From the NCBI RefSeq assembly GCF_000002985.6, contig NC_003282.8, positions 17,298,001 to 17,362,000 of the forward strand: a stretch of DNA of 64,000 bases, written 5' to 3'. A program made the translations under genes and the position numbers. The DNA comes from Caenorhabditis elegans. Its lineage: Eukaryota > Nematoda > Chromadorea > Rhabditida > Rhabditidae. Below the pieces are notes generated by a model. That model saw only the letters and a program-made list of their open reading frames with translations. It did not search any database and had not been told where the DNA came from. How positions within the stretch are numbered: position 1 is the stretch's first letter; each line of letters opens with the position of its first letter. Positions 45,807 through 64,000 of the stretch are shown one piece after another.

Positions 45807-46759
45807 ATGAGGTTTCTCTATATTTCTGCAGTAGCTCTCGTTATTTCCGTTGCAGCTATCGGAAATCCATTTGGAGGAGACGATAAGTGTGAAGAAGGAA
45901 AGCCGACTTGTCCACCTGGATATAAATTTCAAGAAAGAGAGGGTAAACGTGGATGGTGCTTGAAGGCAAGATAAATTTTATTAATATTCTTTTAAATTTT
46001 AAATATTGGCATTATAGTACTTCCCTGGAAATACAACATTCGAAGAGGCCGAGAAAATTTGCAGATGTCAAGGAGGAGCATCACTCTCTGGAATTGAAAA
46101 TATGAAAGAGTTGACTTGGGTTATTGGTTAGTTTTTTAAAAGTTGCGGCGGTTCTTAATAAAAGTCATGTTCAAGTCCAAGCCAAGGCTTCGTTTGCTGA
46201 AGAAGGAATCCAAACAGGAGGAATTTGGGTCGGAGCGTACCGTCGCAAAGCGTGCTGGGATAAAAAGAACTTGAACAAAACCGAGTGCTCAAAAGAGCTT
46301 CAATACCAGTGGACCGATAGAAATACTGTTGGAAATCTGATGTGGAAGAAGAGATGGACTGCGGGAGCACCACATGACAATACTGTTGGGTTTGTGAAAA
46401 GTTTGGAGAGTCAATTTTCCAGTTTAATACTTTCAGAGATCACCACGAGTATTGCGTCCAGCTTCAAGTCACCGTCGACCCAGCTTTGGCGAATAAGAAC
46501 CTCACTGGATTTTTCGATAACAGAGTGTGAGTATTTTTTTTTCAAATTTGGTGAAAAATAATACTGATCAAGATTTGCTAAACTTTTATGATACTTAACC
46601 TTTTACAGATGTGTGAACCCAGCTGCTGAAAATCAATTCCCATCAGAAGGATTCCTTTGTGGACGTCCACCAAAATACACTGGAGGCGGAAATGGCGGAT
46701 ATGGTGGTGGTGGTGGACTTGTAATCATTGGAGCCGGCAAACCAACAAAGAAACCATAA
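45807..46759 (+). CDS. Short secreted C-type lectin-domain protein
   Basis: Five exons: 45807-45965, 46018-46126, 46176-46389, 46437-46526 and 46609-46759 (240 residues). A signal peptide (RFLYISAVALVISVAA) is followed by one C-type lectin domain: KYFPGNTTFEEAEKIC, GGIWVGAYRRK, HHEYCVQL, SEGFLCGRPP. A Gly-rich tail (GGGNGGYGGGGG) ends in KPTKKP. The first intron starts with GC instead of GT (GCAAGA donor at 45966); no GT in range keeps the frame. The convergent gene at 47598-48680 is a paralogue with the same Gly-rich tail. This pair probably corresponds to clec-197/clec-198, but which is which is not certain. Confidence 0.85.
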
Positions 46760-46917
46760 TTTTAGAAGTTGCATTTTCGGTTATTGGATTAAAATTATAA
46801 ACTGATTCTGTGATTCTGTGAAAATATTTGCATTCGAAAAATGTTCATCACCTTAATGAAAACCTAACAAAAAAGTAGTGTTTGGTTTTTTTGAAGTTAT
46901 CGGTCACATGCTGATTG

Positions 46918-47268
46918 TAAATGCGAAAAGGGGAAATACGAAAAGGGGAATTACAAAAAAGGGAAATACGAAAAGGGGAAATACGAAAAGGGGAAACTGG
47001 CACCGTGCCAACGCACGAAACGCTTTTTTTCTCATTCAACGCACGACTTTTTCGAAATTTTCTTCTTGAAAATACGCTTAACAACACGCGACGCGTAATT
47101 TCGGAGCATCGTTGTATCGTTTTCTTCGAGAAAAAGTGCGTTTTGTGCGTTGGCACAGTGCCAATTTTCCCTTTTCGTAGTTCCCCTTTTCGTATTTCCC
47201 CTTTTTGTAATTCCCCTTTTCGTATTTCCCCTTTTCGCATTTCCCCTTTTCGTTCAGTTCCCCTTTTC
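46918..47268. mobile_element. Foldback element with tandem-repeat ends
   Basis: Each end is an array of a 15-bp unit (GGGGAAATACGAAAA and variants; about five on the left, inverted copies on the right). Inside these, further inverted segments share GTGCCAACGCAC and run toward a central loop of about 80 bp. It lies midway between two tail-to-tail lectin genes. No coding capacity; apparent ORFs here only translate the repeat. Confidence 0.85.
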
Positions 47269-47597
47269 GTGGGGCCTCAAATTATTAACACACAAGCGTT
47301 TAAAACCAACATGTTTAAAAAATCCATGTTGGATTTTTCATTAGTATTCAATTTCTGATCAATTTTAATTAAAATTTCATTTTGATCACAAACTAATCAC
47401 CTTCTTCAAATTCCGCAAACTCAATCTGATTGCTTGAACCATGGCTCCACTGATCCGGTCTTTCTATAGTTCAGAGCGTACTCAACTAACCTGCCTCACT
47501 ATTCGACTAATGTTTTTTTAAAAGGTAAACTCGATACAGCATAATAGAAAAGACATAACATTTCATCTTTATCAGAAATTAATAATTTAGGAAGTAT

Positions 47598-48680
47598 TTA
47601 ATGTTTTGGCTTGGCTGCACCGATAACCATAAAATCTCCACCTCCGTATCCTCCATAGTTTCCACCTTCTTGAGCTGCTTTCACGCCACAAACAAATCCA
47701 ACGGATGAGAGAATTGGAGTTGTTCCTTGAACATGAAGGCAGTTTTTGACAGCTGCCTTTCCAGATGCTTCACTGTTTGATCCAGAAGCTTCGGTGGATG
47801 CAAGTAAAACTGCGCAGTCGTCTCCGGCATTGTTGGTCGGCTGATTGGCAGCCCAGTCCTGGAAGATGAGAGTCTTGCATGTATGCTGGTCTGTGAACTG
47901 GAAGGTTTTCTCGTCGTGGCAAATGCTGTCGGATGATACTTTTCCTGATGGGCATTCCTTGCGTCTATAGGCTCCAAGCCAAACTGCTCCATTCTTGATG
48001 TTTTTATCGTCAAGAATGCTCAACGTTTGTTCTGGAATTATACTCGGAAATTATATGAAAAGCTTTCTTTTGTTTCTAACACTCTACGAAATTAGTATTG
48101 AAGTATTAAAGACTAGTCTTGCATGACTAATTGTAAGGCAACATTTAATAAACAGTTTCTGTTATAAAAAATTGTCAATAAATAGACTTTCAAATTGATG
48201 TAATACTATATAAAATCTGACAAGGCCGACACGATTCTGTTTTCACTGTTTTCATAAAAATTAAAAATAATCAAAATTCAGTTTCAGTATTGCATTCCAC
48301 TTTCAAGCACCCTTCTTGAACTATTAATCAAAATCAAAACTAACCTTCCACATATCTCTTCTCGGAGTTACTCTCAATTCCTGACAGATGACCACCTTTG
48401 ATGGTACATCGGCATTCACGTTCAGCCTCCCACCAAGTCATGTTTCCTGGGTAAACCTAGAAAAAGTCGAGATTGTTTCAAATGACAATTTTGCAAGCTC
48501 GACTACAATAAACGAAAAAAAAACCCTGACCTTGATGCACCATACTCCATTAACTCTATTCGATTTGTGGAAGTTCGGTGGGCACTTGAACTCTGCACCA
48601 CAATCTCCATTACCCATTGGTACTCCCATTGCCTGAAGTGCCACAAAGCAAAGTGCCAGAATTAACAGTTGGCGAATCAT
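47598..48680 (-). CDS. Short secreted C-type lectin-domain protein, convergent paralogue
   Basis: Minus-strand exons 48680-48531, 48456-48345 and 48031-47598 (231 residues). Signal peptide (IRQLLILALCFVALQA), then a C-type lectin domain with KVYPGNMTWWEAEREC, GAVWLGAYRRKEC, WAANQPTNNAGDDCAVLL and GFVCGVK, and a Gly-rich tail (GGNYGGYGGGDF). It shares its first two intron positions with the gene at 45807, but the domain is otherwise encoded in one large exon and all introns are GT-AG. The calcium/sugar motif is NQPTNN rather than EPN or QPD, so classical sugar binding is doubtful. Confidence 0.87.
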
Positions 48681-49180
48681 AATGATGTGGCAAGAAGAAT
48701 CGAAACTTGCTGGTTTCAAACGCATTGTTTGAGGTTTTATATGATACTCACGCAATTTTATGGTTATAGTTTTCTTCGGGGGATATTTTATTGCAGTCTT
48801 ACCTACCTCCTCGGTTTCACAAAAAATATATTCGAACGGGCTTTGGAAGACTTTTCCGGTTTTAAATATTATTTGAGATTTTAGAAATAATTCTGCCTAG
48901 ACTGAAACTACACTTCATGGCATGTATTGAGTTATACAATAAGTAAAAACTAAAATTGAACAATGTTTAAAGTAAATTAAAAGTTAAAATCATAAGAATC
49001 GAACATCAGTTACAACAAATTAAATTTGTCATCATCCCACATTTGTGTCATCTGTGCCCTGTAATAATAAAAATTCAAGCGCGAAAATTCGCAGGTGCAG
49101 AGATTACCCTTTTTGAATCTATAGTCTCTTTGTATGAGAACTGATCAAAAACGGTAATTTGAGTGTCATACCAGTGAGAA
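48681..49180. other. Intergenic region between lectin genes
   Basis: No gene recognised. This is divergent promoter space for the minus-strand lectin and the plus-strand lectin array. Confidence 0.4.
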
Positions 49181-52100
49181 ATGGTTGTCTCGATGCGGTG
49201 GCTTTTGTCGGTATTCACTTTTTTATGCATGAAATACAGCGAAGCTTCTAATCCTAGAGCAATTATTTTACAAAATTTTATGGATAGCAATAAGGAGGCT
49301 GTGAAAAATTTGAAGGATGACAGTGAGTTTCGAAGGACAATAAGATTCCTAAAAATGTGCCATGTTTGTTTGAAGTTACGCTTTCTTTTCTGAATGGGTC
49401 TTGCCATCATCTAGCGGTGGTTACAGAAGACAAATTTTGCAAATGCGTTCATCTGTTGTAGAAAATGAATTGTATGAAACTTCAAAGTTGTGTATGATTT
49501 TTCGTAAAACATTTTGCGCCTATTTTTATTGTTTCTATAAACGGACTTACCTTTGCTAAATTTTGACGGCTCAAACTTTTGACAATTCATGTTGGAAGTG
49601 TTTTGATATAATTTTTTAACTACGACAACTTCTGTAAAAACAGGTTAAAAGGACAGCAGGACTGACTGGAAAATTCGGGAAAAGGTTTTGTCCATTTTAT
49701 CAACAAAAAAATTTGAATCGGTTATTTTGACCCCTATAGCAGCCGATTTGTTCTCGGATTCCATGTTTCAAGTGTTAGATATCATTTTTCAAATTTTATG
49801 GTTTCATTAAATAATTGACATCAGGTTAATCTATAGCGTCTACCAAAAACTGAAAAATAACTTTCGTTTTCAACGAACAAATTTTGATTGTAACTTTTGG
49901 TGTTGTTAAAAAAACAACTACTTTTTAATCAGAGTCAATTGAAAAATCTCTACTTAAAATTGGATTTTCAGATGTTTTATCGAAAGCCCTAGTCAAAACC
50001 TTTGGCCTAAATTCGAGTTCATCCTCTTCGTTGAGTGATGAGTCATCTTCCAACTTGGTACTCATGGGTAATCAAATAACTTCTCAACAAACTGTTAACT
50101 TTGAATATTTTAGATTCCACAACACCATGCGACTCCGGCTGGACAAAATCCACAGTAAACGGGATGTGCTATAAAGTTAGACATTTTTCAACTCAAACTG
50201 TTGAATTTCGTTTTTGTAGATTGCAACAGCAGATACTACGTGGTATGCAGCAGAGGATTGGTGTTATAGTCAGAGATATGGGTCACATTTAACATCTGTT
50301 CATAGTGAAGCGGAAGCACAATGGATTGCAGGTTAGCATAAAAGAATACTGTTCAAAAACTAAAATAATTTTCGTTTTTAGCGACTTATGTGTCCACGGG
50401 GTGGTTTCCATATATGGACAATTGGCTAGGCCTCAGAAGAAGTGCAAGTTTTTTTTAGTTTTTAAAGTTCTACAATTATACAGAATATTCCAGTGCGATA
50501 ATAGTACGTATATTTGGACTGATGGAACACCAGTCGACTACTTGTGGTGGCAACCTGGTTATCCTGGATCAGGGGACCCAGAAAAAAGTTGTGTCACTAT
50601 TTGGGTCACTTCTTTGTTGAAACTTAATCCGGGCTACGTGCAAGGACAGTTCGACGACATTTGGGATTGTGGAACCAATCTGGCTACACCTACTTGTCGT
50701 TATGACCCCACGTCAAGTAGAAATTTATGAAATCATACAATCAAAACTTAAATAGTTTTTCAGCTGCGCCCCATATTAAATACGATACGAGTTACACATG
50801 TGCGTCGACAACTACAGTTTCAACAACTTCAACCGTTACTACAACTAAACCTACCACCACTACAACGGTTTGTAAAATTGAGTTTAAAAAGTAGTCGTAA
50901 ACCAAAAATCGTGGAGTTTTCTACTTTTTCCAAAACTTCCAGTTTTCAAGTTGGCTAGAAATAATCAAACTCTATAACATGATGAAAAATGTCTCCTACT
51001 GTTTGTCATTCATCTGGCATTTCATTTTCAGACTCCAACTACGACGACAACCACACCCACAACTACAACTACAACTCCAACAACGGTGTGATAGTCTCCA
51101 CAAATTTTAAAAATACTGCTTTAATATTTTCAGACTCCTACAACCACAACAACAACCCCGACAACGACCACAACGGTAAGAGTAATAAAAATGGGTTGCC
51201 ATTAGTAGAAATTTTGTTTAACACTTTCTGCTTAAATTTAGATGAATCGTGTTGAAGGCAGAAATCTACGAGCGAATTATCAGCCGGGAAACTGTTTTAA
51301 GCTTCATAGTTTAAAAATTGTAAAAAAAACTAGATAATACAGTTTAATTATACTGTTAGTTAATCGTGATGCAAAAAATAGAGCTCAAAATATGCATACA
51401 GTGCCACGACTGTTCATTCATTTTCAATTGTTTTTTCAAACATAAACTTTACTTAATTTCCAGGAAAGCACAACAACTGAAACAACATCAACTACGGTAA
51501 GTGACTAAACCTATACATTTTTCGTTGCAATGAAACTATTCACGCTCCATGAAAATAGCAGAAAAGCGCTATGCCGAATAGTTTTGAAACTTGAATGAAT
51601 GTGGGGTAATTCTGAAAATACTTTCTGAATCTGATTTTAATGAGCTCGACAGTACTTTTCCCACGATACAGAGCCGCAGATTGTAGAACTTAAAGTGAAA
51701 GCAAATTATTAGCAACAGAAATTACAGCATCGGAATAATTAACAAAAATGTATTAGTTATCTATATTTAAAAAAATATTTAAAGGTTTTCTCAAACATTC
51801 AAACTTCAAATAATTTTCCACGAAAATTCAGACTCCAACAACCACGACCACAGCGCCAACTACCACAACCACGGTTAGAAAATTTGAAAATTGTTTTCTT
51901 AGCCTGTGACCAGTAAAAAAAAGTTCAGGCATCCACAACAACTTTCAAAACTACAACGATAACTACTACAACACAAACCACAGTAAGTTACAGACGAGAA
52001 AAAAACTCAGTGCCTGATATTAACTATCTTTCGTTTATTAGTCTTCCATGCAAAACTAATAGTGGAAATCCTTTTTTTTTCAACAATATGTCTCCATACA

Positions 52101-52991
52101 AAGCAGCATGCAATATATGTATTTTACAAAGAAACACAACATCATTAAGTTCAAAACTTTAATCAAACTTTAATAAAGCAAGAAATAGCTTTCAAAATTC
52201 TATATTCCTAAGGAATCAACTCTCATTACGGAAATGAGTTGAAAAACACTTAAAAAACTTTTTCGCTCAAAAAACAGTAAATTCTTGAAAATTACGCAAG
52301 AAACCCAGAAACGCCGAAAATAAATACATGCGAATGTCTGATACAGACCCCAACAACTACTGCAACCACTACCAAGCCGACGACAACAACGCCAACTACA
52401 ACGAGAACACCTGTCGATTGTTCAGCAAAGTGTGACCCATTTTGGGTTAGTTATAGTGATGGATGTTATGCGGTGAGTTTTTTAAAAAAATATTTACAAC
52501 TGTTTGAAACCACTAATACTTTTCAGAAGATTCAAGGAACAGCTACTTTTGAAACCGCCAAACTGGGCTGTCAATCGGTTGGGGGAGAAATGGCAGTAAT
52601 CACTGACGCAGCGATGAATGAGGCTATAAGATGTACAGAAGTTAAAATTTTATATCCCAATTGAACACAATATATTTTTAATTACAGTAGCCTTCAGTAC
52701 AAATATTGATTCAAGTGTTTCGAATCAGGCATGGATCGGAACATCTTCATATTCTAACTGGGCGCCCGGCAAACCTGACAAAGCACAAGGAGTTGCATAT
52801 TCCAGTTATTGCAATGTGGTTGGTTCACATTTTCAATATTTTGTTGTATGAAGCTTACTAAAGATGTGTAATTCTTTCAGATTGCGTTGTCAGTTGTTAA
52901 TAAAGGAAAAGACTTTGGATTTTCACGAGGTGTATGGACCGATTATCCATGTTCATTGAAACAAGAATTTGCAATTTGTAAACGTATTTAA
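49181..52991 (+). CDS. Mucin-like protein with two C-type lectin domains (array member 1)
   Basis: Sixteen exons: 49181-49322, 49972-50067, 50114-50175, 50220-50331, 50382-50443, 50494-50716, 50764-50867, 51032-51085, 51134-51175, 51464-51496, 51832-51873, 51929-51982, 52347-52472, 52527-52632, 52688-52818 and 52881-52991 (499 residues). Signal peptide (MRWLLSVFTFLCM), first lectin domain (WYAAEDWCYSQRYGSHL, DNWLGLRRS, WTDGTPVDYLWWQPGYP), Thr/Pro linker encoded by exons 7-12, and a second lectin domain (VSYSDGCYAKIQG, AWIGTSSYSNWAPGKPD). The usual QPD position reads QPG. Intron 5 has a GC donor (GCAAGT after 50443). Intron 1 (649 bp) might hide a further exon. Confidence 0.8.
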
Positions 52992-53939
52992 TTATGAATC
53001 GTTTAATTATGATTTCGTTGCACATCATGCAGTATTTCTTGTTTTTAACTGCGGTCTAATAAATAAGACTAAACAAGTTTTCCATAGCAACAATCATCTC
53101 GACCGGCTCGTGCGCATATTCCTTTCTCGAGATGCAACTCAATTTTAGTTTTTTTGCGACTTTTTCAAAAATTCCCCAGAAAGTATTATCATTTTTCTTC
53201 TGTCAGTTAATCAACCGAAACAAAATAACTTGAGCAAAACAATGTTTTATTCAAAATTCAATATTTTGAAAAATGTTCAACACAAAACGCTTTTAGATTT
53301 TTTTCTTTAACTCTTCGATTTTTCGATGACACCATATCTCCGGATTAATTTAACTATTTTTTTTTAGAAAACAGAAAAATTATACAGTTTCAAGTGCTAA
53401 TTGTTACAAAAATTGAAAAATTTTACAAAACGCCTGTTACGATGTTTTGTAAAACGTTATTGTATTTAGTGTATCTGACTGGAGCCAATTTTTTCATGTC
53501 GCAAACTTTCTCTGAGTTTAAAAATAGAAATAAGATGTAGGAAAACAAAATCTAAAAGCCCGCAAGCGTAATAAGTGCAACAGGATACATTTCCAATTAT
53601 CAGGCTGAGAACACTCAGCAGGACTGTTTTTGGGAATACGATGTTTGATCATTTGCAAACAAATCGACTGTCTGGTAGTGGTGAGTGATTATTTAACCAA
53701 AAAAGTAGACTGTTTTCGAAGTACATAGATCGACAATTCTGCAAATCCTTAACAAGTCCGGAGATGAGATGAAATCAATACGTAGTTCTGTGTTAACTTT
53801 GGTCAATTGATCCTATGTAGTTCCGTTCTGACAGTTCTTTGTTAAGTCCGCATCTTTGAACTGAAGAGGATTACGTTTATTCGAAACCTGTGTCACGTAG
53901 ATGTGAGCGAATGTTAGGCTTTGCCACTTGGTTCAAAAA
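52992..53939. other. Intergenic region between array members 1 and 2
   Basis: An AATAAA at about 53060 ends the upstream gene. The rest is AT-rich with no recognisable gene. Confidence 0.45.
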
Positions 53940-56900
53940 ATGAATCGGTTTTTTTGTTTGACTGTTTTGTTTTCCTACTTATACAGATTTACATTTTCTG
54001 CAAATGATAATGCTAAAATTGGTGAGTGATTATGTTTTCAAGGGTTTGTTGTATCAATAATTAAAAATTACTAACTGATAAAGTTAATTTCAAATTGTAC
54101 TCTTTAGGGAAGTTTTGATACACATACATATTCGATTTTTCAAACAGACCATCTAACAATTTTACGAGAGAAATATGAAATTCGTGCCAGAATTTTAAAA
54201 TTAAATTGAATTGCTTATTGAAACAACATTTTTTTTCCAATTTCAGATAACCTTGTCGCTCGTCAATATTTATTCTCGAACTTTGTTGCGAACAACAGAG
54301 AAGCTTTGAAAAAATCGGACGGTTCTGATGAACGCTGGCTATTTAAATTTATGAACGAAAATTCTATAATTCCACCAACTTCAAACTCAAAAAGTGGCAG
54401 CCTAGCAGACTCTGGCCAGGCTGGTCTTGTTCTTGCTGATGCTATTGGAACAGCAAAATGTGCATCTGGTTGGACGAGATGGACTGGAAATGGATGTTGC
54501 TATAAGGAAATGGCGTCTCCGATGCTTTCGTGGTATGCTTCAGAAGATTGGTGTTATAGTCAAAAAGCTGGAGCACATTTAGCTTCAGTTCATAGCAGGG
54601 CAGAAGCTGAGTGGCTAAATTGTATGTTGCTTATTTAGGACTTTAGCAAAACAAATAGAAATTGTTGTCAGACCAATATAAACTTTGGTGGTCTAAAATG
54701 GACGATTGGATCGGGTTGAGAAGAAACGCGAGTTTTTTCACGTTAGGTTTCAAAAAAAAAAATGTTAACGTTTGCAGTGTGACAATACAGCTTGGGCATG
54801 GACCGATGGCACTCCGGTGGATTTCCTCTGGTGGCAACCGAATTATCCGATTTATGGCGGAATAGAGGACAGTTGTACTGCTGTGAGTTATATTTGCATT
54901 TTTCTTGAGAGCAGTTTGAATATTTTGAAGTTTTAAGTTTGAATAGAGTAACAACAATCATTTAGAAAACCGCTTTGAACTGTGAACATTTTAAATGTTT
55001 TATGATTCATTCACTGTACAAATTTACAAATTTTAAGATCAAGAAACGTATTGCTAGTTCTTCGGAACAATATTGAATTAAACATGATTTTTTTTTAATA
55101 TTTAAAGGGCTAGCAGTAGCCAAATTTGTACTAAATAAACAAATTTAACTAAATATTCGCTTATTTCAACTTTGTGAAATATGAAATCCAATGAACCTAG
55201 CTTTATCGCTCAGATGTGGGACTCTACGGTTCTCCGTGGAATGTATGATTTCTACCCAGGACAAATGGATGATGGAAGATCGTGCACGGGCAGTGTTGCA
55301 TGGGCGCTGTGCAAATATGATCCAAATACTTGTAAGAATAATGTGATCTGAAAATCATTTGTCAGCTTGTTTTTCAGCAATTATTTCTCCAAAATGGGTT
55401 AAGGCAGATTGTACTACTACATCGACGACTACTACGTCCACAACAACAACCACAACTCCAACGGTATGTTAAAGCAATAAAATAGATTTTTCAACGAGTT
55501 ATCGCAATTGACGGCGTATTATTTAGACCACCACTATGCCCACAACCACTACAACGGTAATGTCGTTTGACACAAGTTTAGGCAATCTAACAACTTTAAT
55601 TTTAGACTCCAACGACCACGACCACTACGCCAACAACAACTACAACGGTAAGAATCATAGTGTCGAATCTAAAAAGGATTTTATCAACTCAATACTGTAA
55701 TAGTGCGCCCAACTGCTACACCTTTTTGATTTCGGTTTTTAACGCCTCTTTAAATTGAGAAACTGGCTTCATTCAAATTTTTTTTATTTTTTCACTATAA
55801 GTTATGGTAGAAAAAGTACATGTAGAACGGCTATAAGATTTGCTAGAAAGGGACGATATATATATTTTTTTAGACTCCAACAACCACAACAACCACACCA
55901 ACAACTACAACGGTAAGAAGACAACTAGATTCACGTATTTCATGATCTCACTTACAGGAAACCACCACAACGCCAACAACGGTTTTGAATAAAAATTTAA
56001 AGGAAACGTGATGACAAAAAATGTATGTTTTAGGAAACTACCACCACTCCCACAACCACAACGCCGACAACTACGACAACGGTTTGATAGTTTTAAAAAC
56101 GTGATAAAAACAGTCTTTATAATTTCAGACTCCGACAACAACTACGACGGTTTAGTTATTATTATTACCGTATTTCTTCTAATAGTATGGCTGGAATACC
56201 ATTCATTTTTCGAAGGTCTTCGCGGTTGCAATACAGATAGAAAATGCAATTTTAATTGTTTTTTGTTCAAAATTAATAGTTTTCGTTTACAATAGACAAA
56301 AAAAGTGAACGCAAGATTATTAGGGAGTGCAAGTCTAATAGGGAGGCCATACTAATAGAAAAATATGGTATTTCAATAATTCAAAATATTTTTTACTAAT
56401 TCTTCAGGAAACCACTACAACTCCGACAACCACTACTACGGTATGTATATAAACTGTTTAATTTGTATTTATGTCTATTAATCTATTAAAGGTGAAATAC
56501 GGTCCGTGGGGAAATGATTGAAAACCATTCCGATGGTAATGAAAATATCAAATATTATAGCACGACTTTTCAAATAATTCTGGAAATCTTTCGATTCTAG
56601 TCCAAAAGTGTCACAAACTCAATTTTCACCCGTTTTAACTAAAAACAAAAATGTTTATAATTTTTTAAAAAGTCATTGTGATATTTGGTCATCTTTTAAA
56701 TTTTTTCATTTATTTTCCCACTTACCTTACTTCACCTAATTTTCTATTTAAACACGCTTGTTCGTGGAATTGGAGTTTGCAAAGTTTCATAATTGAACCT
56801 GCTCAAAAAAGGTAAAATAAAAAATTATTCTTCGAGTTCTTATATAATGCAAAATAGTTTGTACTCATTTAAAATAACGTTTTTGAACAAAAACAGTGCT

Positions 56901-59895
56901 CAACTTTCAGGAAACCACTACAACTCCGACCACTACAACCACAACACCAACAACAACTACTACGGTACGTAATTGAACTTATAGACAATTTTGTTTATTT
57001 CATAACGTTTTCTGGAAAAAACTAGCACCATCCAATAAGGTTCAAAATTTTCAAGTAATGTTTGGTCAGAACTACTATAAACTGAAGTTAGTTTTCACTG
57101 ATTTAAAGTTGTTACTTTCCTGAAAACGTTAAAAAAAACATTTCATATACTTCTCGATGGTAGCAACAACAGGTTTACACAATTTACTTTCTTGTACCCA
57201 TGCGTGCAAAATCTGTTTTATCAAATTCTGAGAAAAACATATGAAGCTTTGAAAAACTTATGCCAGATACATTTTAAAGGAAACTACAACAACAACACCA
57301 ACGACGACGACAACCGTATGCAACTTCATTATTTCTATAATAAATCTAAGATTAATTTTGATTAATTTTGTAAAAATTTCAGACTCCAACTACCACAACG
57401 ACAACACCAACAACTACCACGACGGTAAAAAAAAAGTTATGCAAAAATACCGTTGTATATTTTCAGACTCCTACAACAACAACTACTACACCAACTACCA
57501 CTACGACGGTTCGTCTATTACTTGAGTAGTTTTAAATTAGAGTTGGTCATTTTATTAGAATCGTTGTTCTTATAACGTACAATTCAGAGCTTACCAATGA
57601 GTGATAGTACTGAAAATCTTTGTTAATTATAAAACTCTCTAAAAAGCTACTCCACCTCAAATTATTCTTGTTTCAATACAATCTAAATAGTATATTAATG
57701 TTTATTACCAATTCCAGGCACCGACAACAACAACCACAACTCCAACGACTACCACTACGGTGTTTTTGAAAATAAAAATAATTATAATTTTTGATAAACT
57801 TCCAGACTCCTACAACAACTACTACCGTACCAACAACTACAACAACAGTAAATTTTTGAAAAATGTTGCATGCAGAACTAAGTTACTAAATTGTACTAAA
57901 TTGTAGAGACTACAACACTATTAAAAGCTGGGATTGAATTTTCACTCGACAGTGATACAATATTATAGTTTAACTTTCAGACTCCCACTACTACAACCAC
58001 TACAACCACTACACCAACAACAACAACAACGGTGCGTGATTATAATTTCAATTTTATTATCTATGTGAACATGTAACTGAATTTTTGGGGACATATTAAA
58101 AACTTTACTTTTAGTTTTATTTTGATTTCAGACACCGACAACTACAACCACTCCAGCAACGACTACTAGCGTAGGTTTTCTAAACATGTTGATATTCAAA
58201 TTCAACTTTTCCAATGAGTTAAATATTGAAAAAAAAACGCCCATAATGAAAAAAATCAGCGAGCATCGATTTGTAAACTAGCACTACTCAGATTTGATTT
58301 TTGGGGTTTAGTTTCTAGTAAGAGGAACGCCGGAATATGTTTTCAAAAACTGAGGGAAGAGGCTCACCAAAATATCCCTGAAAACATCAAACAATCATGC
58401 TTTTCTCACTGATAATAATTCATTTTTCAGGAAACAACTACAACGACGCCAACTACTACAACTGTGAGTTTCAGTTTTCATTTGATTTTTTTGCTTGAAA
58501 CTTCCATCCAAAATGCGTTTTCGAATTATTTTGATTTCAAAAATTCAGCAAACCACAACGAAGCCTACAACTACTACAACTACACCAACGGTAAGATTTA
58601 CGAAACAATTCTAGTAAATATAGAATGTTACTATTTTTCAAATGCCCTTCGAAAAATTAATTATTCTTTAACAACATCTTGATTAAATATTTTACAAAAC
58701 TCATAGAGCAATTTTAAAACCTCTCTGATCATGAAACTTTTCACAAAGTAATGCAGGACTGCGAACAAGTAAATTAAAGACTATGAAAAGCCTGCGGTGA
58801 TATAAGAGTTGATTTGGTACGAACCTTTGGTTTGAGACATAACATTTCCTGGATCCAACTTTTGCGGTTTTTTTTCTCAAGAAATCTCTGATAAAATAAT
58901 TTTAGACAACGCCCACTACGACAACAACTCCAACAACCACAACTACAGTGAGAATTTTATGCGTTTGATGCTGTAGAAAATGCATCATTTTTAAATACCT
59001 CAAAAATTATAAAAAATTAAGGTCACTACCGATAGCATTTTCCATCAATTTCACACTTTTAAATTCAATTTATTTACAACACATGAAATATGACCTTACC
59101 AGTATACTGTTTAATGCATTAGGGACTGTAACACTGTTAATGCGCAAAATTTTCTGTAACATTCAATATGTGTGTGAAAAATTAAAAAATGTTTAATACC
59201 ACCTATTCAGACAGCAAAAACTACAAAGTCCACGACAACCACTACAAAAACTACAAAAACCACATCTACCCCAACTACAACCACTACAACACCCAAAACT
59301 CCATTCGACACGTCAAAGTGTACTGTCATGTGCTCAACTGGTTGGGTGTATTATAATAATTTATGTTATGCGGTACCAATATTTTTTTGAACATTGCAAA
59401 ACTAGCAAAGATTTTGTAGAAACTTCAAGGTCCTGGTAGACTCAATGATTTCAATAAAGAATGCATCAGTTATGGTGGAAAAATTGCTGAGATACCGGAT
59501 GCTCAAGTAAATGATGTGTTGAGAAGTGAGTGGAACGGGTCATAAAACTAGATCATTTTAAAACTTCAAGACCTAAAAACAATTAATTTTAACTGCACAG
59601 AATCATTCGGAACAAATATCAATGACGAAGAAGCGTGGGTAATTTCTAGTGGGTACAACAACGTGGCAAGTGGATATACTGCTGCTGCTGATTCATGTAT
59701 TGCTGTAAGTTTGAAAATTACTGTGTCTCATGGGAACAAAAGCATGAAAATTAATATAAAATCTTCAACGACTTCCGCAACTTCCAGATGACTCTATCTC
59801 AAAAAATCAGTGGTTCAGTGGCGCAACGAGGAACTTGGAGACCTTATGCATGCTCACTTGCCAAGAATTTTGGAATTTGTCAGAAACCTATTTGA
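53940..59895 (+). CDS. Mucin-like protein with two C-type lectin domains and a mini-exon Thr linker (array member 2)
   Basis: Twenty-eight exons (667 residues). The first lectin domain lies in 54247-54621, 54672-54727, 54778-54882 and 55214-55331 (SWYASEDWCYSQKAGAHL, DDWIGLRRN, WTDGTPVDFLWWQPNYP). After 55378-55463 come 18 mini-exons of 21-54 nt, every one a multiple of three with phase-0 borders: 55527, 55606, 55874, 55958, 56034, 56129, 56408, 56911, 57280, 57383, 57467, 57718, 57806, 57981, 58132, 58431, 58549 and 58906 (starts). They encode TPTTTTT- or ETTTTPTT-type units. The second lectin domain is in 59211-59372, 59420-59525, 59601-59704 and 59788-59895. Signal peptide at 53940. Intron 3 uses a GC donor (GCGAGT after 54727). 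Confidence 0.82.
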
Positions 59896-60138
59896 AATTT
59901 TTTGTATTGATCTATAAATTATTAATCTTACCTGTCAATTTGTATACAGTTCTACGCAATGATCGTGAACTTTACCGAATTTGAACTTGGAACCCAAGTT
60001 TGGCATTCAAACTGGTTTGAATAGTTTAAATCCGTTTAATACAAACTTTGTCTTCTGTTATGGGATTTATGATCAAATAAACACTTGTAAACCCAAATAA
60101 ACACTTGTAAATAGAAAAGTATTTTAATAAATTCAATC

Positions 60139-62635
60139 ATGTTGACTAAATATTGTTCAATTCAATTTGTTCTCATAGCTACCAGTCTCCATGAAATCTT
60201 TGGTAAAGCAATTGGTAAATTGTTTATTTTTTAACAACATTTTTTCTTTGCGTTTAACAATTATACTGACTATAATAAAATAATGTCGCGTGTATGCACA
60301 TATTAAATGTAACTTTTTTGTAATTTTTTGTAACTTGTAACTTTGAAAAATGTTTTTTTTTCACCTATGCACACGCCTGTTTATTGTTCTCAGTGTAGCA
60401 GTCTACTGTTTAGACAAATCTTGAAGTTGTGGACTATTTAAAATGTGGAATTTTGTTTAGAATTTAACATTAAAAACTTTTTCGCTTTGAATAATGCAAA
60501 ACGCAAACTCCAAAACTCTGAACAAAGCTGGAAAGAAGCGGGATCGGGGGTGCTGAAAAAGTGGTTTTTGATTAGGTCGCTTCTGGTGGTAAAACAACTT
60601 AATCCAGCTGTATATGAAAATATTGGAAAAACAATGTTTTTTCCAAGATTCTGATACGGACTTTAAAAAACTTTTTTCAAAAAAAATGGGGGTTATAAAA
60701 AATCTATAACAAATTTTTTCAATTTTAGTAAAATTTATTCTCAGATGATTTGAATGCACGAAAGGAGATATTGCAAAACTTTGCAAAAGAAAATCAAATT
60801 TCGATCAGAGGAGAAAATGATGAGCGTAAGTCTTTTCACTGCAAAATAAAAGCTGTATGTATTTGTGCTCACAAAATTCACTTGAGGATTTATGTTCAAA
60901 TTTATGAATGCCAATTCCCTTCTGCCACCGGAAACTGCACTATCAGATGCACCATCTCCAGACCTTATTGTATTATCGGATGCAGTTGGCAACACAGCGT
61001 GTGTTTCCGGTTGGACGAGATACACAGTAACAGGGATGTGCTACATGGAGTCTACGAGTTCCATGAGTTGGTACGACGCTGAAGATTGGTGTTGGAATCA
61101 GAGGAGTGGAGCACATTTAGCATCGGTACATAGTCAAGCTGAAGCTCAGGGGATAAATTGTGAGTTCATTGCAACGAACTTGTCTCAATAAAGTGTTAAA
61201 GAAATCCACATTCAGCTCAATTCAAAGTGTGGTACCTACCATTGGATGATTGGATTGGCTTGAAACAGGAGGCAAGATCGTTTTTCTTTTATTGTAACAT
61301 TTTTAAAGATTTAAACTATAGTGTGAAATGAATGCTTATTATTGGACTGATGGTTCTCCTGTGGATTTTCAATGGTGGCAGCCAAGCTACCCGCAGGCTC
61401 AATATGCTGAACAAAGTTGCACAACTGTAAGTTCGATGAAACTACTTATAATATAAAAAAAAGATTCAGATATGGAACACTGCACTGCTTCTATTGATAT
61501 CCGGGTATACTCCTGGACAGTTTGATGATATGAAAGAGTGCTCAGAAGCAGCTGGATCATATGCACTTTGCAAATATGATCCAAATACATGCAAGTTTTT
61601 GTAGACATGTTTATAGAATTATATAACTTTCTACATTTTAAGCTATTATTGGAGAGAAATACGTACCAGTCGTAACAGTCTGTGCGGAAACTGAATCGAT
61701 CGGCAACCGGTTTATGCCGAGTCCCCAATTTTTTTTAAATCAAAGGTTGCCACACGGCCGCAGCTTGCAGAGCCTAAAATGAGAAAACTAACTTGTATTG
61801 ATTTAGTATGCTTTCAAATTTACGATTGTGAAATATGTTCAACTCTCAAAAACAATAGAAATGTTTTCCAGAGTCGGACTTCAACTACATCAAAAACTAC
61901 AACAACAGTGCCAATTAGTACCTTTATCATCACTACACCTACAACTTTGCCCGTTACGGTTAGTAGTAAAATTTTGAAAAGTAATTAATACCTACTTCAC
62001 AACCATTAATATTCAGAAAACGATCAAGACTACAACAGCTTCCGAAGCTATTACTTTTACCACTCAATTCGATGCTTCAAAATGTCCTGTTACATGTCCG
62101 ACAAACTGGGTGTACTACAGTAATTTATGTTACGCGGCAAGCAAGCTTTCTAATGAATAGTCGTTAAAAAATATTATTTCAGAAAATACAAGGCCCTGGA
62201 AGACTGAGCGATTTCGCTGTAGAATGTGAAAGTTTTGGCGGGAAACTAGCCAGAATACAGGATGTCCAAACAAACGAAATGTTAACAAGTAAGTTTTTGA
62301 AAGAAAACCAAATTCTCCAAATAATTATTATTCGCTTTGTAGGATTCTTCAGCACTAACAACAACGATGACGGAGAAGCTTGGGTAGTTTCCTCTGGGTA
62401 CAGTAATGTTGCAAATGGGTATGATTATGAATCAGACTCGTGTTTAGCCGTAAGTTGTGTTTAATATGATGAAGTTTAAAACAAATTTTATAATTGACCA
62501 TCTGACTAGAAAAATTTTCAGTTGACTTTGTCACCAGAAATTGACGGAGTAGTTGCTGACAGAGGAACCTGGAGGCCATATTTGTGTGATGTAGCCAAGG
62601 ACTTTGCCATCTGCCAGAAATCAGCCGTAACATAA
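60139..62635 (+). CDS. Protein with two C-type lectin domains, short linker (array member 3)
   Basis: Twelve exons: 60139-60214, 60745-60825, 60887-61159, 61216-61271, 61322-61426, 61470-61590, 61643-about 61677, 61872-61958, 62017-62136, 62183-62288, 62343-62449 and 62522-62635. First lectin domain: SWYDAEDWCWNQRSGAHL, DDWIGLKQE, WTDGSPVDFQWWQPSYP. The Thr linker is only two exons (SRTSTTSKTTTTVP). Second lectin domain: YYSNLCYAKIQGPGRLSDF, EAWVVSSGYSNV, RGTWRPYLCD. Three introns have GC donors (after 61271, 61590 and 62136). The donor of exon 7 is ambiguous (61671 or 61677, both in phase); the repeat-like stretch at 61690-61775 lies just after it. Domain exon lengths 56, 105 and 106 nt equal those of array member 2. 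Confidence 0.78.
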
Positions 62636-63442: not shown

Positions 63443-63639
63443 ATGTCAGTTTTTGCCTTCTCTTTCTGTGCGGTCGTCATCATGCCAAATCTCCTTGCTA
63501 TGTCTGATGGTAAATACAATATATTTTTACTAGACTTATATTCAAGAGAGATTTTCAGAGGAAACGCGGGGACGACAAGCAATGGTAGCTAATTTTGTCA
63601 AAGATAACCAAAAAACAATCAGGAATGGAAAAGGAGATA
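63443..63639 (+). CDS. Start of a fourth lectin-array gene (partial or broken, runs to window edge)
   Basis: Exon 63443-63509 encodes a signal peptide (MSVFAFSFCAVVIMPNLLAM) and joins in phase to 63559-63639, 81 nt, encoding a segment (TRGRQAMVANFVKDNQ) that aligns with the second exon of array member 3, also 81 nt (LNARKEILQNFAKENQ), and with NFVANNREALKK of member 2. The next obvious acceptor (about 63678) leads to an immediate stop, so the rest either lies beyond the window or has decayed. Confidence 0.6.
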
Positions 63640-64000
63640 GTAGGTTTTAGAATTGCATTTGTGTAATCATTTTACAGAGCATTAGCCGTTTTTTACTACT
63701 AGATTAGTTGGGATGCATAGCAAGTTTAATAGTTTAAAAATTAAGCTAGAACCATATGGGGTTACAGTACACCAATGGGTTTGTAAATTTAATGACGATA
63801 AAGCTCGGTCTGAAAATGTAGATTAACCCGGCATAAAAATTGATATAGGTTTCCTCGTAAGCAATTAATGCTCCACAATCAATCAAATCACCGTATTTCA
63901 TGTTCAAACTCCAGGTCCTTCAAACTTGAAAATTCTACATAGAAATTTTGGTGTTATGTGTCCTTGTGGAGTTTTTTGAATAAAAAATAATATAACCTGC

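Follow-up and report, generated by a model that had tools for sequence, protein, structure and literature searches.

GC-AG introns in a C-type lectin gene cluster near the right end of Caenorhabditis elegans chromosome IV: one site most likely shared by descent and three lone changes

A cluster of C-type lectin genes close to the right end of chromosome IV of Caenorhabditis elegans contains six introns that appear to begin with GC, which raises the question of whether these are genuine introns and whether selection, inheritance or neither explains their occurrence together. The stretch analysed, referred to as the window, is 64,000 nucleotides long (G000:C4:17298001-17362000, in a genome of 100,286,401 bases and 7 contigs), and positions are those of the window unless a longer identifier is given. 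Six lectin-type genes were modelled. S1 and S2 are small neighbours belonging to one subfamily, and A, B, C and D are four tandem genes in which an N-terminus, signal-like as judged by eye, is followed by a first lectin domain (CTLD1), a threonine-rich (Thr-rich) linker and a second lectin domain (CTLD2). Intron sites shared by the tandem genes are named by their flanking residues, and a slash marks the exon boundary.

Six GC-AG introns and their reading frames

The first-pass annotation had claimed six GC donors, and all six could be located at the positions it gave, in open frames that match the paralogues. The introns are as follows.

45966..46017, plus strand: GC-AG intron 1 of S1, AAG/GCAAGA; derived
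50444..50493, plus strand: GC-AG intron of gene A at the LRRx/C site, AGT/GCAAGT
54728..54777, plus strand: GC-AG intron of gene B at the LRRx/C site, AAC/GCGAGT
61272..61321, plus strand: GC-AG intron of gene C at the LRRx/C site, GAG/GCAAGA
61591..61642, plus strand: GC-AG intron of gene C at the end of CTLD1 (NT/ site), CAT/GCAAGT; GT in A, B and D
62137..62182, plus strand: GC-AG intron of gene C in CTLD2 (CYA/K site), GCG/GCAAGC; GT in A, B and D

Use of the six GC donors left S1, A, B and C with open frames from ATG to stop. Each GC donor is joined to an AG acceptor in frame with its flanking exons (6/6), which is the pattern of U2-type GC-AG introns, and retention of the intron produces a frameshift and a stop at all six sites. 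Based on these frames, the six are probably genuine U2-type GC-AG introns, and the GC donors would be the sites used in the animal. A U12-type assignment was considered and rejected, since the donors are unlike the U12 donor consensus ATATCC and C. elegans seems to be without U11, U12 and U4atac RNAs (PMC3033335). The introns of S1, A, B, C and D number 69, consisting of 6 with GC and 63 with GT donors, and S2 adds two GT introns, giving 6 GC introns among 71. By gene, the GC share was 1/4 in S1, 1/15 in A, 1/27 in B, 3/11 in C and 0/12 in D.

The GC sites might alternatively not be true donors, with nearby GT sites yielding lectin variants that lack some residues. The first-pass annotation had described the nearby GT donors as creating a stop or the wrong phase. 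In the search for donor-acceptor pairs, donors were taken anywhere in the upstream exon or in the 120 bases that follow it, and acceptors anywhere in the downstream exon or in the 60 bases preceding it. Donors were scored with a table built from the GT introns of these genes, with position +2 counted as T, so that GC was unpenalised. Frame-keeping GT-AG pairs could be found at five of the six sites (25, 24, 14, 11, 0 and 19 pairs in order of position), examples being 62088 joined to 62183 (94 nt) and 54731 joined to 54791 (59 nt); the description is thus too strong, although at 61591 the searched range contained no such pair. These five sites speak for the use of GT donors, but none of the pairs outscores the GC model, the margin being narrow in S1 (11.5 for the GC model against 11.3 for the best GT pair). 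Among the frame-keeping choices with either GT or GC donors, the GC donor ranked at the top at all six sites; for the pairing of donor and acceptor, the modelled choice led at five of them. The GT-AG alternatives also delete residues conserved among the paralogues, namely the W-x-G-L core, the Cys after the intron or LCYA, as seen by eye in the alignment. Due to their lower scores and the loss of conserved residues, these alternatives were not preferred, and splicing from them is extremely improbable as an explanation of the six sites.

Homologous sites and the origin of the GC donors

The introns at 50444, 54728 and 61272 had been proposed as homologous, and this was borne out by an identical codon boundary in A, B and C, in phase 0 and directly before Cys. 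Within the two domains, seven intron positions are common to genes A to D, which gives 27 introns because A is without one. GC donors are present in five of these 27, three at LRRx/C, one at NT/ and one at CYA/K, the last two in gene C only. Gene D extends beyond the end of the window, and its homologous intron, which lay outside the view of the first-pass annotation, revealed a GT donor at LRRx/C (L009:688, GAT/GTTAGT). A distant tandem trio (C4:12433k, 12439k and 12442k; G000:C4:12433482-12442960) carries an intron at the same place and in the same phase, with GT in all three genes, and the comparison suggests that the LRRx/C intron predates the A-D cluster. The seven homologous introns therefore consist of three with GC (A, B and C) and four with GT (D and the distant trio).

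At the other three sites the relatives carry GT. The introns at 61591 and 62137 have GT donors in all three tandem paralogues each, and the intron at 45966 has GT in 7/7 paralogues with a readable donor. For this S1 site, 21 of 55 paralogue matches were inspected, of which 13 read through without an intron; nine places were examined for a donor, which was read by eye, with no complete gene model, at six of them, while S2 provided the seventh (AAG/GTCAGG). Because every readable paralogue at 45966, 61591 and 62137 has GT, GC is derived at these sites, and it represents separate gene-specific GT-to-GC changes in S1 and C. The six GC introns are thus more than one phenomenon, consisting of one shared site and three lone changes. 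Among the paralogues of this one genome, GC is kept in three of four tandem genes at LRRx/C and in no relative at the other three sites. The proposal that the donors were kept through duplication is supported for the three LRRx/C introns and does not extend to the lone changes, and gene D has GT at the shared site.

GC junctions account for 0.6% in C. elegans protein-coding genes (PMC7242645), a rate at which at least 6 of 71 introns would be GC with P = 4.8e-6 (8e-5 at a rate of 1%). When the shared site was counted once, the probability of at least 4 of 71 was 9e-4 (6e-3 at a rate of 1%). The genome contains about 110,000 introns, and when four origins are counted the genome-wide expectation is about 1.4 such blocks, so that one will be met in a scan over many windows. 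Whether GC is in excess across the whole cluster is not decided by the 30 linker introns of A to D or the 12 introns of D, since none of either is GC, which is equally the background expectation. Clustering had been taken to suggest selection or inheritance; inheritance is supported for the three LRRx/C introns, and the other three arose separately.

The age of the shared donor was assessed from the divergence of the lectin domains. CTLD1 of A to D is 49-58% identical in pairwise comparison. Synonymous divergence (dS) could be computed in only one of six CTLD1 pairs (2.0), the other five being saturated, and in two of six CTLD2 pairs (1.9 and 2.2). Non-synonymous divergence (dN) was 0.32-0.46 for CTLD1 and 0.26-0.79 for CTLD2. 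Over the six CTLD1 pairs, 45 of 162 four-fold silent sites were identical, which is close to the random level. Since the silent sites are saturated, the shared GC is old and has outlasted its silent surroundings.

The persistence of GC was further evaluated using a two-state turnover model with an equilibrium of 0.6% GC. The dS between C. elegans and C. briggsae, 1.8-2.0, served as an input. The rate was derived from a figure cited in PMC2490688, according to which C. briggsae retains 5 of 26 GC-AG introns of C. elegans. The model, which is rough in that the four tandem genes are joined in a star tree and the distant GT homologues are left out, gave a probability of 0.994 to 1.000 for an ancestral GC. 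For GC in at least three of four copies at a given site, the joint probability was 9e-5 to 1.3e-3. Under this model the pattern is uncommon yet would not demand selection.

Independent gain of GC at LRRx/C in A, B and C, or its spread by gene conversion, would also place GC at one position in three genes. GT-to-GC changes do happen in this cluster, as the two additional GC donors acquired by gene C show. However, three hits at one site are very improbable on a 0.6% background, and the modelled probability of an ancestral GC argues in the same direction. Recent gene conversion was rejected because four-fold identity is near random, and the LRRx/C introns of A to D are dissimilar to one another by eye. 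We regard repeated gain or conversion as improbable, and the three LRRx/C GC donors most likely represent one inheritance from a common ancestor. In the best tree constructed with the distant trio, D grouped with C (ultrafast bootstrap 57) and B was nearest the root; trees in which D branches first were not rejected (best approximately unbiased test P 0.40).

Donor make-up and the question of regulation

The six GC donors have a distinct composition. R-A-G at positions +3 to +5, the stretch that pairs with U6, was present in 6/6 GC donors compared to 23/63 GT donors (Fisher P 0.004), and in 6/6 compared to 13/33 when only non-linker introns were counted (P 0.008); +5G and +4A are present in all six. 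Consensus matches outside +2 had a median of 5.5 in the GC donors and 4 in the GT donors (P 0.002). AG at -2/-1 could be seen in only two GC donors, that of S1 and the LRRx/C donor of C. When pairing with the 5' end of U1 was modelled, the duplexes of the six GC donors ranged from -1.4 to -4.9 kcal/mol with a median of -2.65, compared to -5.5 for the GT donors (P 0.01). The acceptors of the GC introns tended to be weaker (median 5.2 versus 8.1, P 0.06). This donor make-up fits the known U2-type GC-AG introns, and a new mechanism is unnecessary. The C at +2 would lower U1 pairing, the perfect R-A-G at +3 to +5 would compensate, and the ordinary spliceosome probably processes the six introns. 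A single GT-to-GC change in the ancestor of the tandem genes would account for GC at LRRx/C in A, B and C, with GT in D arising by reversal or by D having branched first, and the other three GC donors would have separate origins in S1 and C. Ordinary U2-type GC-AG introns, with a shared GC of single origin, separate lone changes and no need of special selection, are in our judgement quite probable.

Several observations weigh against this explanation. The share of 3/11 GC introns in gene C is somewhat above expectation (0.34 such blocks per genome). At 61272, the later acceptor 61397 scores 10.3 compared to 9.4 for the modelled acceptor 61322, which was retained because of homology. The best tree, with D beside C, requires one gain plus one reversal. 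Given a GC ancestor, the modelled chance of GC in at least three of four copies is 0.014 to 0.23, which leaves room for selection. Furthermore, the GC donors are putative sites of splicing, argued from frame and homology.

The consequences of donor failure at LRRx/C could be predicted from the exon structure. The exon before this intron is 56-62 nt long and not a multiple of three, and in all four tandem genes skipping it brings a stop 1-2 codons past the junction. Retention of the intron brings a stop after the donor at 4 codons in A and D, 19 in C and 45 in B. As retention and skipping both give a premature stop, donor failure would lower the output and make no variant protein. Control of lectin output through failure of the LRRx/C donor is conceivable. 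The shared GC may be imagined as a weak regulated donor kept by selection, which sets the amount of lectin through retention or skipping and the premature stop. Its persistence in three of four tandem genes despite saturated silent sites, the stops just described, the weaker acceptors and modelled U1 pairing of the GC introns, and the precedent of a weak donor in let-2 (as cited in PMC2490688 and PMC7242645) are in line with such a role. However, D has GT at the homologous site, and the conserved C-D-N/C-E codons account for the stops that skipping produces, so that these stops are not independent evidence. GC is also commonly shared at homologous plant sites, with 9,830 GC compared to 13,045 GT matches given in PMC7072748, and neither the turnover model nor the genome-wide expectation requires selection. 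A selected regulatory donor is therefore considered unlikely, and inheritance of an ordinary GC donor is preferred.

U2-type GC-AG introns of C. elegans were reportedly treated by Farrer et al. in 2002. They are cited in PMC2490688 and PMC7242645, as is intron 10 of let-2 with its regulated GC donor. The lectin introns resemble this class in GC at +1/+2, the AG end, strong +3 to +5 positions and GT in relatives, and differ in that three lie at one position in tandem paralogues and four of six are without AG at -2/-1. In the lectin genes as in let-2, an exon of a C. elegans gene is followed by a weak GC donor. The regulation was tested in let-2, whereas the lectin introns are described here from sequence, and the exon before the shared lectin intron, unlike that of let-2, is not a multiple of three.

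A further comparison concerns METT-10. In C. elegans, //GURAG 5' splice sites with a weak U5 match are sensitive to loss of METT-10, which is also needed at weak 3' sites and shows overlap with SNRNP27K, and +5G is associated with less change in mett-10 mutants (PMC11347140). The lectin donors resemble these sites in having R-A-G with +4A in 6/6 and no AG at -2/-1 in 4/6, but they are GC and not GU, have +5G in 6/6 and carry AG at -2/-1 in 2/6. By analogy, an ancient, selected, U6-dependent GC donor at LRRx/C might tie lectin production to U6 snRNA methylation by METT-10, with poor use of the donor leading to intron retention or exon skipping and so truncating the protein. We consider this very improbable; if true, how much of a secreted lectin family is made would be governed by a housekeeping modification.

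A literature search, in which supplementary tables were not covered, did not turn up a publication describing these clustered GC donors; the introns may well be present in existing genome annotations. The locus represents a new instance of the known U2-type GC-AG class in which the persistence of GC-AG introns by descent is well supported, and it gives no evidence of a new splicing mechanism. The tandem genes (three GC and one GT) and the distant trio (three GT) form a natural donor series in one tractable animal, in which what a GC donor costs, and whether it is of any use, could be measured at one intron position.

Gene models and neighbouring features

The gene models on which the intron counts are based are listed below.

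45807..46759, plus strand: gene S1, single lectin-type domain; 5 exons, open frame, 240 aa, paralogue matches
47598..48680, minus strand: gene S2, neighbouring paralogue of S1; 3 exons, open frame, matches C4:17345664-17346014 and 17346349-17346456
49181..52991, plus strand: gene A, signal peptide (by eye), CTLD1, Thr-rich linker, CTLD2; 16 exons, 1 of 15 introns GC
53940..59895, plus strand: gene B, architecture as A; 28 exons, 1 of 27 introns GC
60139..62635, plus strand: gene C, architecture as A with a short linker; 12 exons, 3 of 11 introns GC
63443..64000, continuing to L009:2583, plus strand: gene D, fourth tandem paralogue; 0 of 12 introns GC

Pfam Lectin_C (PF00059) scored over the curated cut-off in CTLD1 of A, B, C and D and in CTLD2 of A, and CTLD2 of C was below it (15.1 compared to 22.6). 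The Pfam scan covered S1, CTLD1 of A to D and CTLD2 of A and C, and a Lectin_C match was not found for S1. This gene could be linked to the lectin family via a match at C2:3578579-3578917 that overlaps an above-cut-off Lectin_C match. C49C3.12 (clec-197) presumably lies in this area. PMC4714518 assigns clec-197 (C49C3.12) to chromosome IV and gives no finer position.

Gene C was also considered as a pseudogene on account of its three GC donors. This was rejected, as its frame is open across 12 exons. The comparison of B and C in CTLD1 gave a dN of 0.38 with a dS of 2.0. The first linker junction of this gene is uncertain, the boundary 61710/61874 being one choice among several. The acceptors of gene C near its GC donor were unusual, with TTTTAAG at 61591-61642 and CCAGAG at the end of the boundary chosen for 61710-61873.

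In gene D, a stop is present at L009:2581-2583, where CTLD2 of B and C continues with Gly/Ala and then I-C-Q-K, and D is without the last conserved Cys of CTLD2. Gene D may be a degenerating copy or carry a strain-specific stop. Between S1 and S2, an inverted repeat with 115-nt arms that are 93% complementary was observed at 46919-47242, possibly representing a palindromic mobile element. In A (50764-52430) and B (55378-59330), the Thr-rich linkers consist of many short exons of the TPTTTTTT type, mostly in phase 0, which suggests that the linkers grew by exon duplication.

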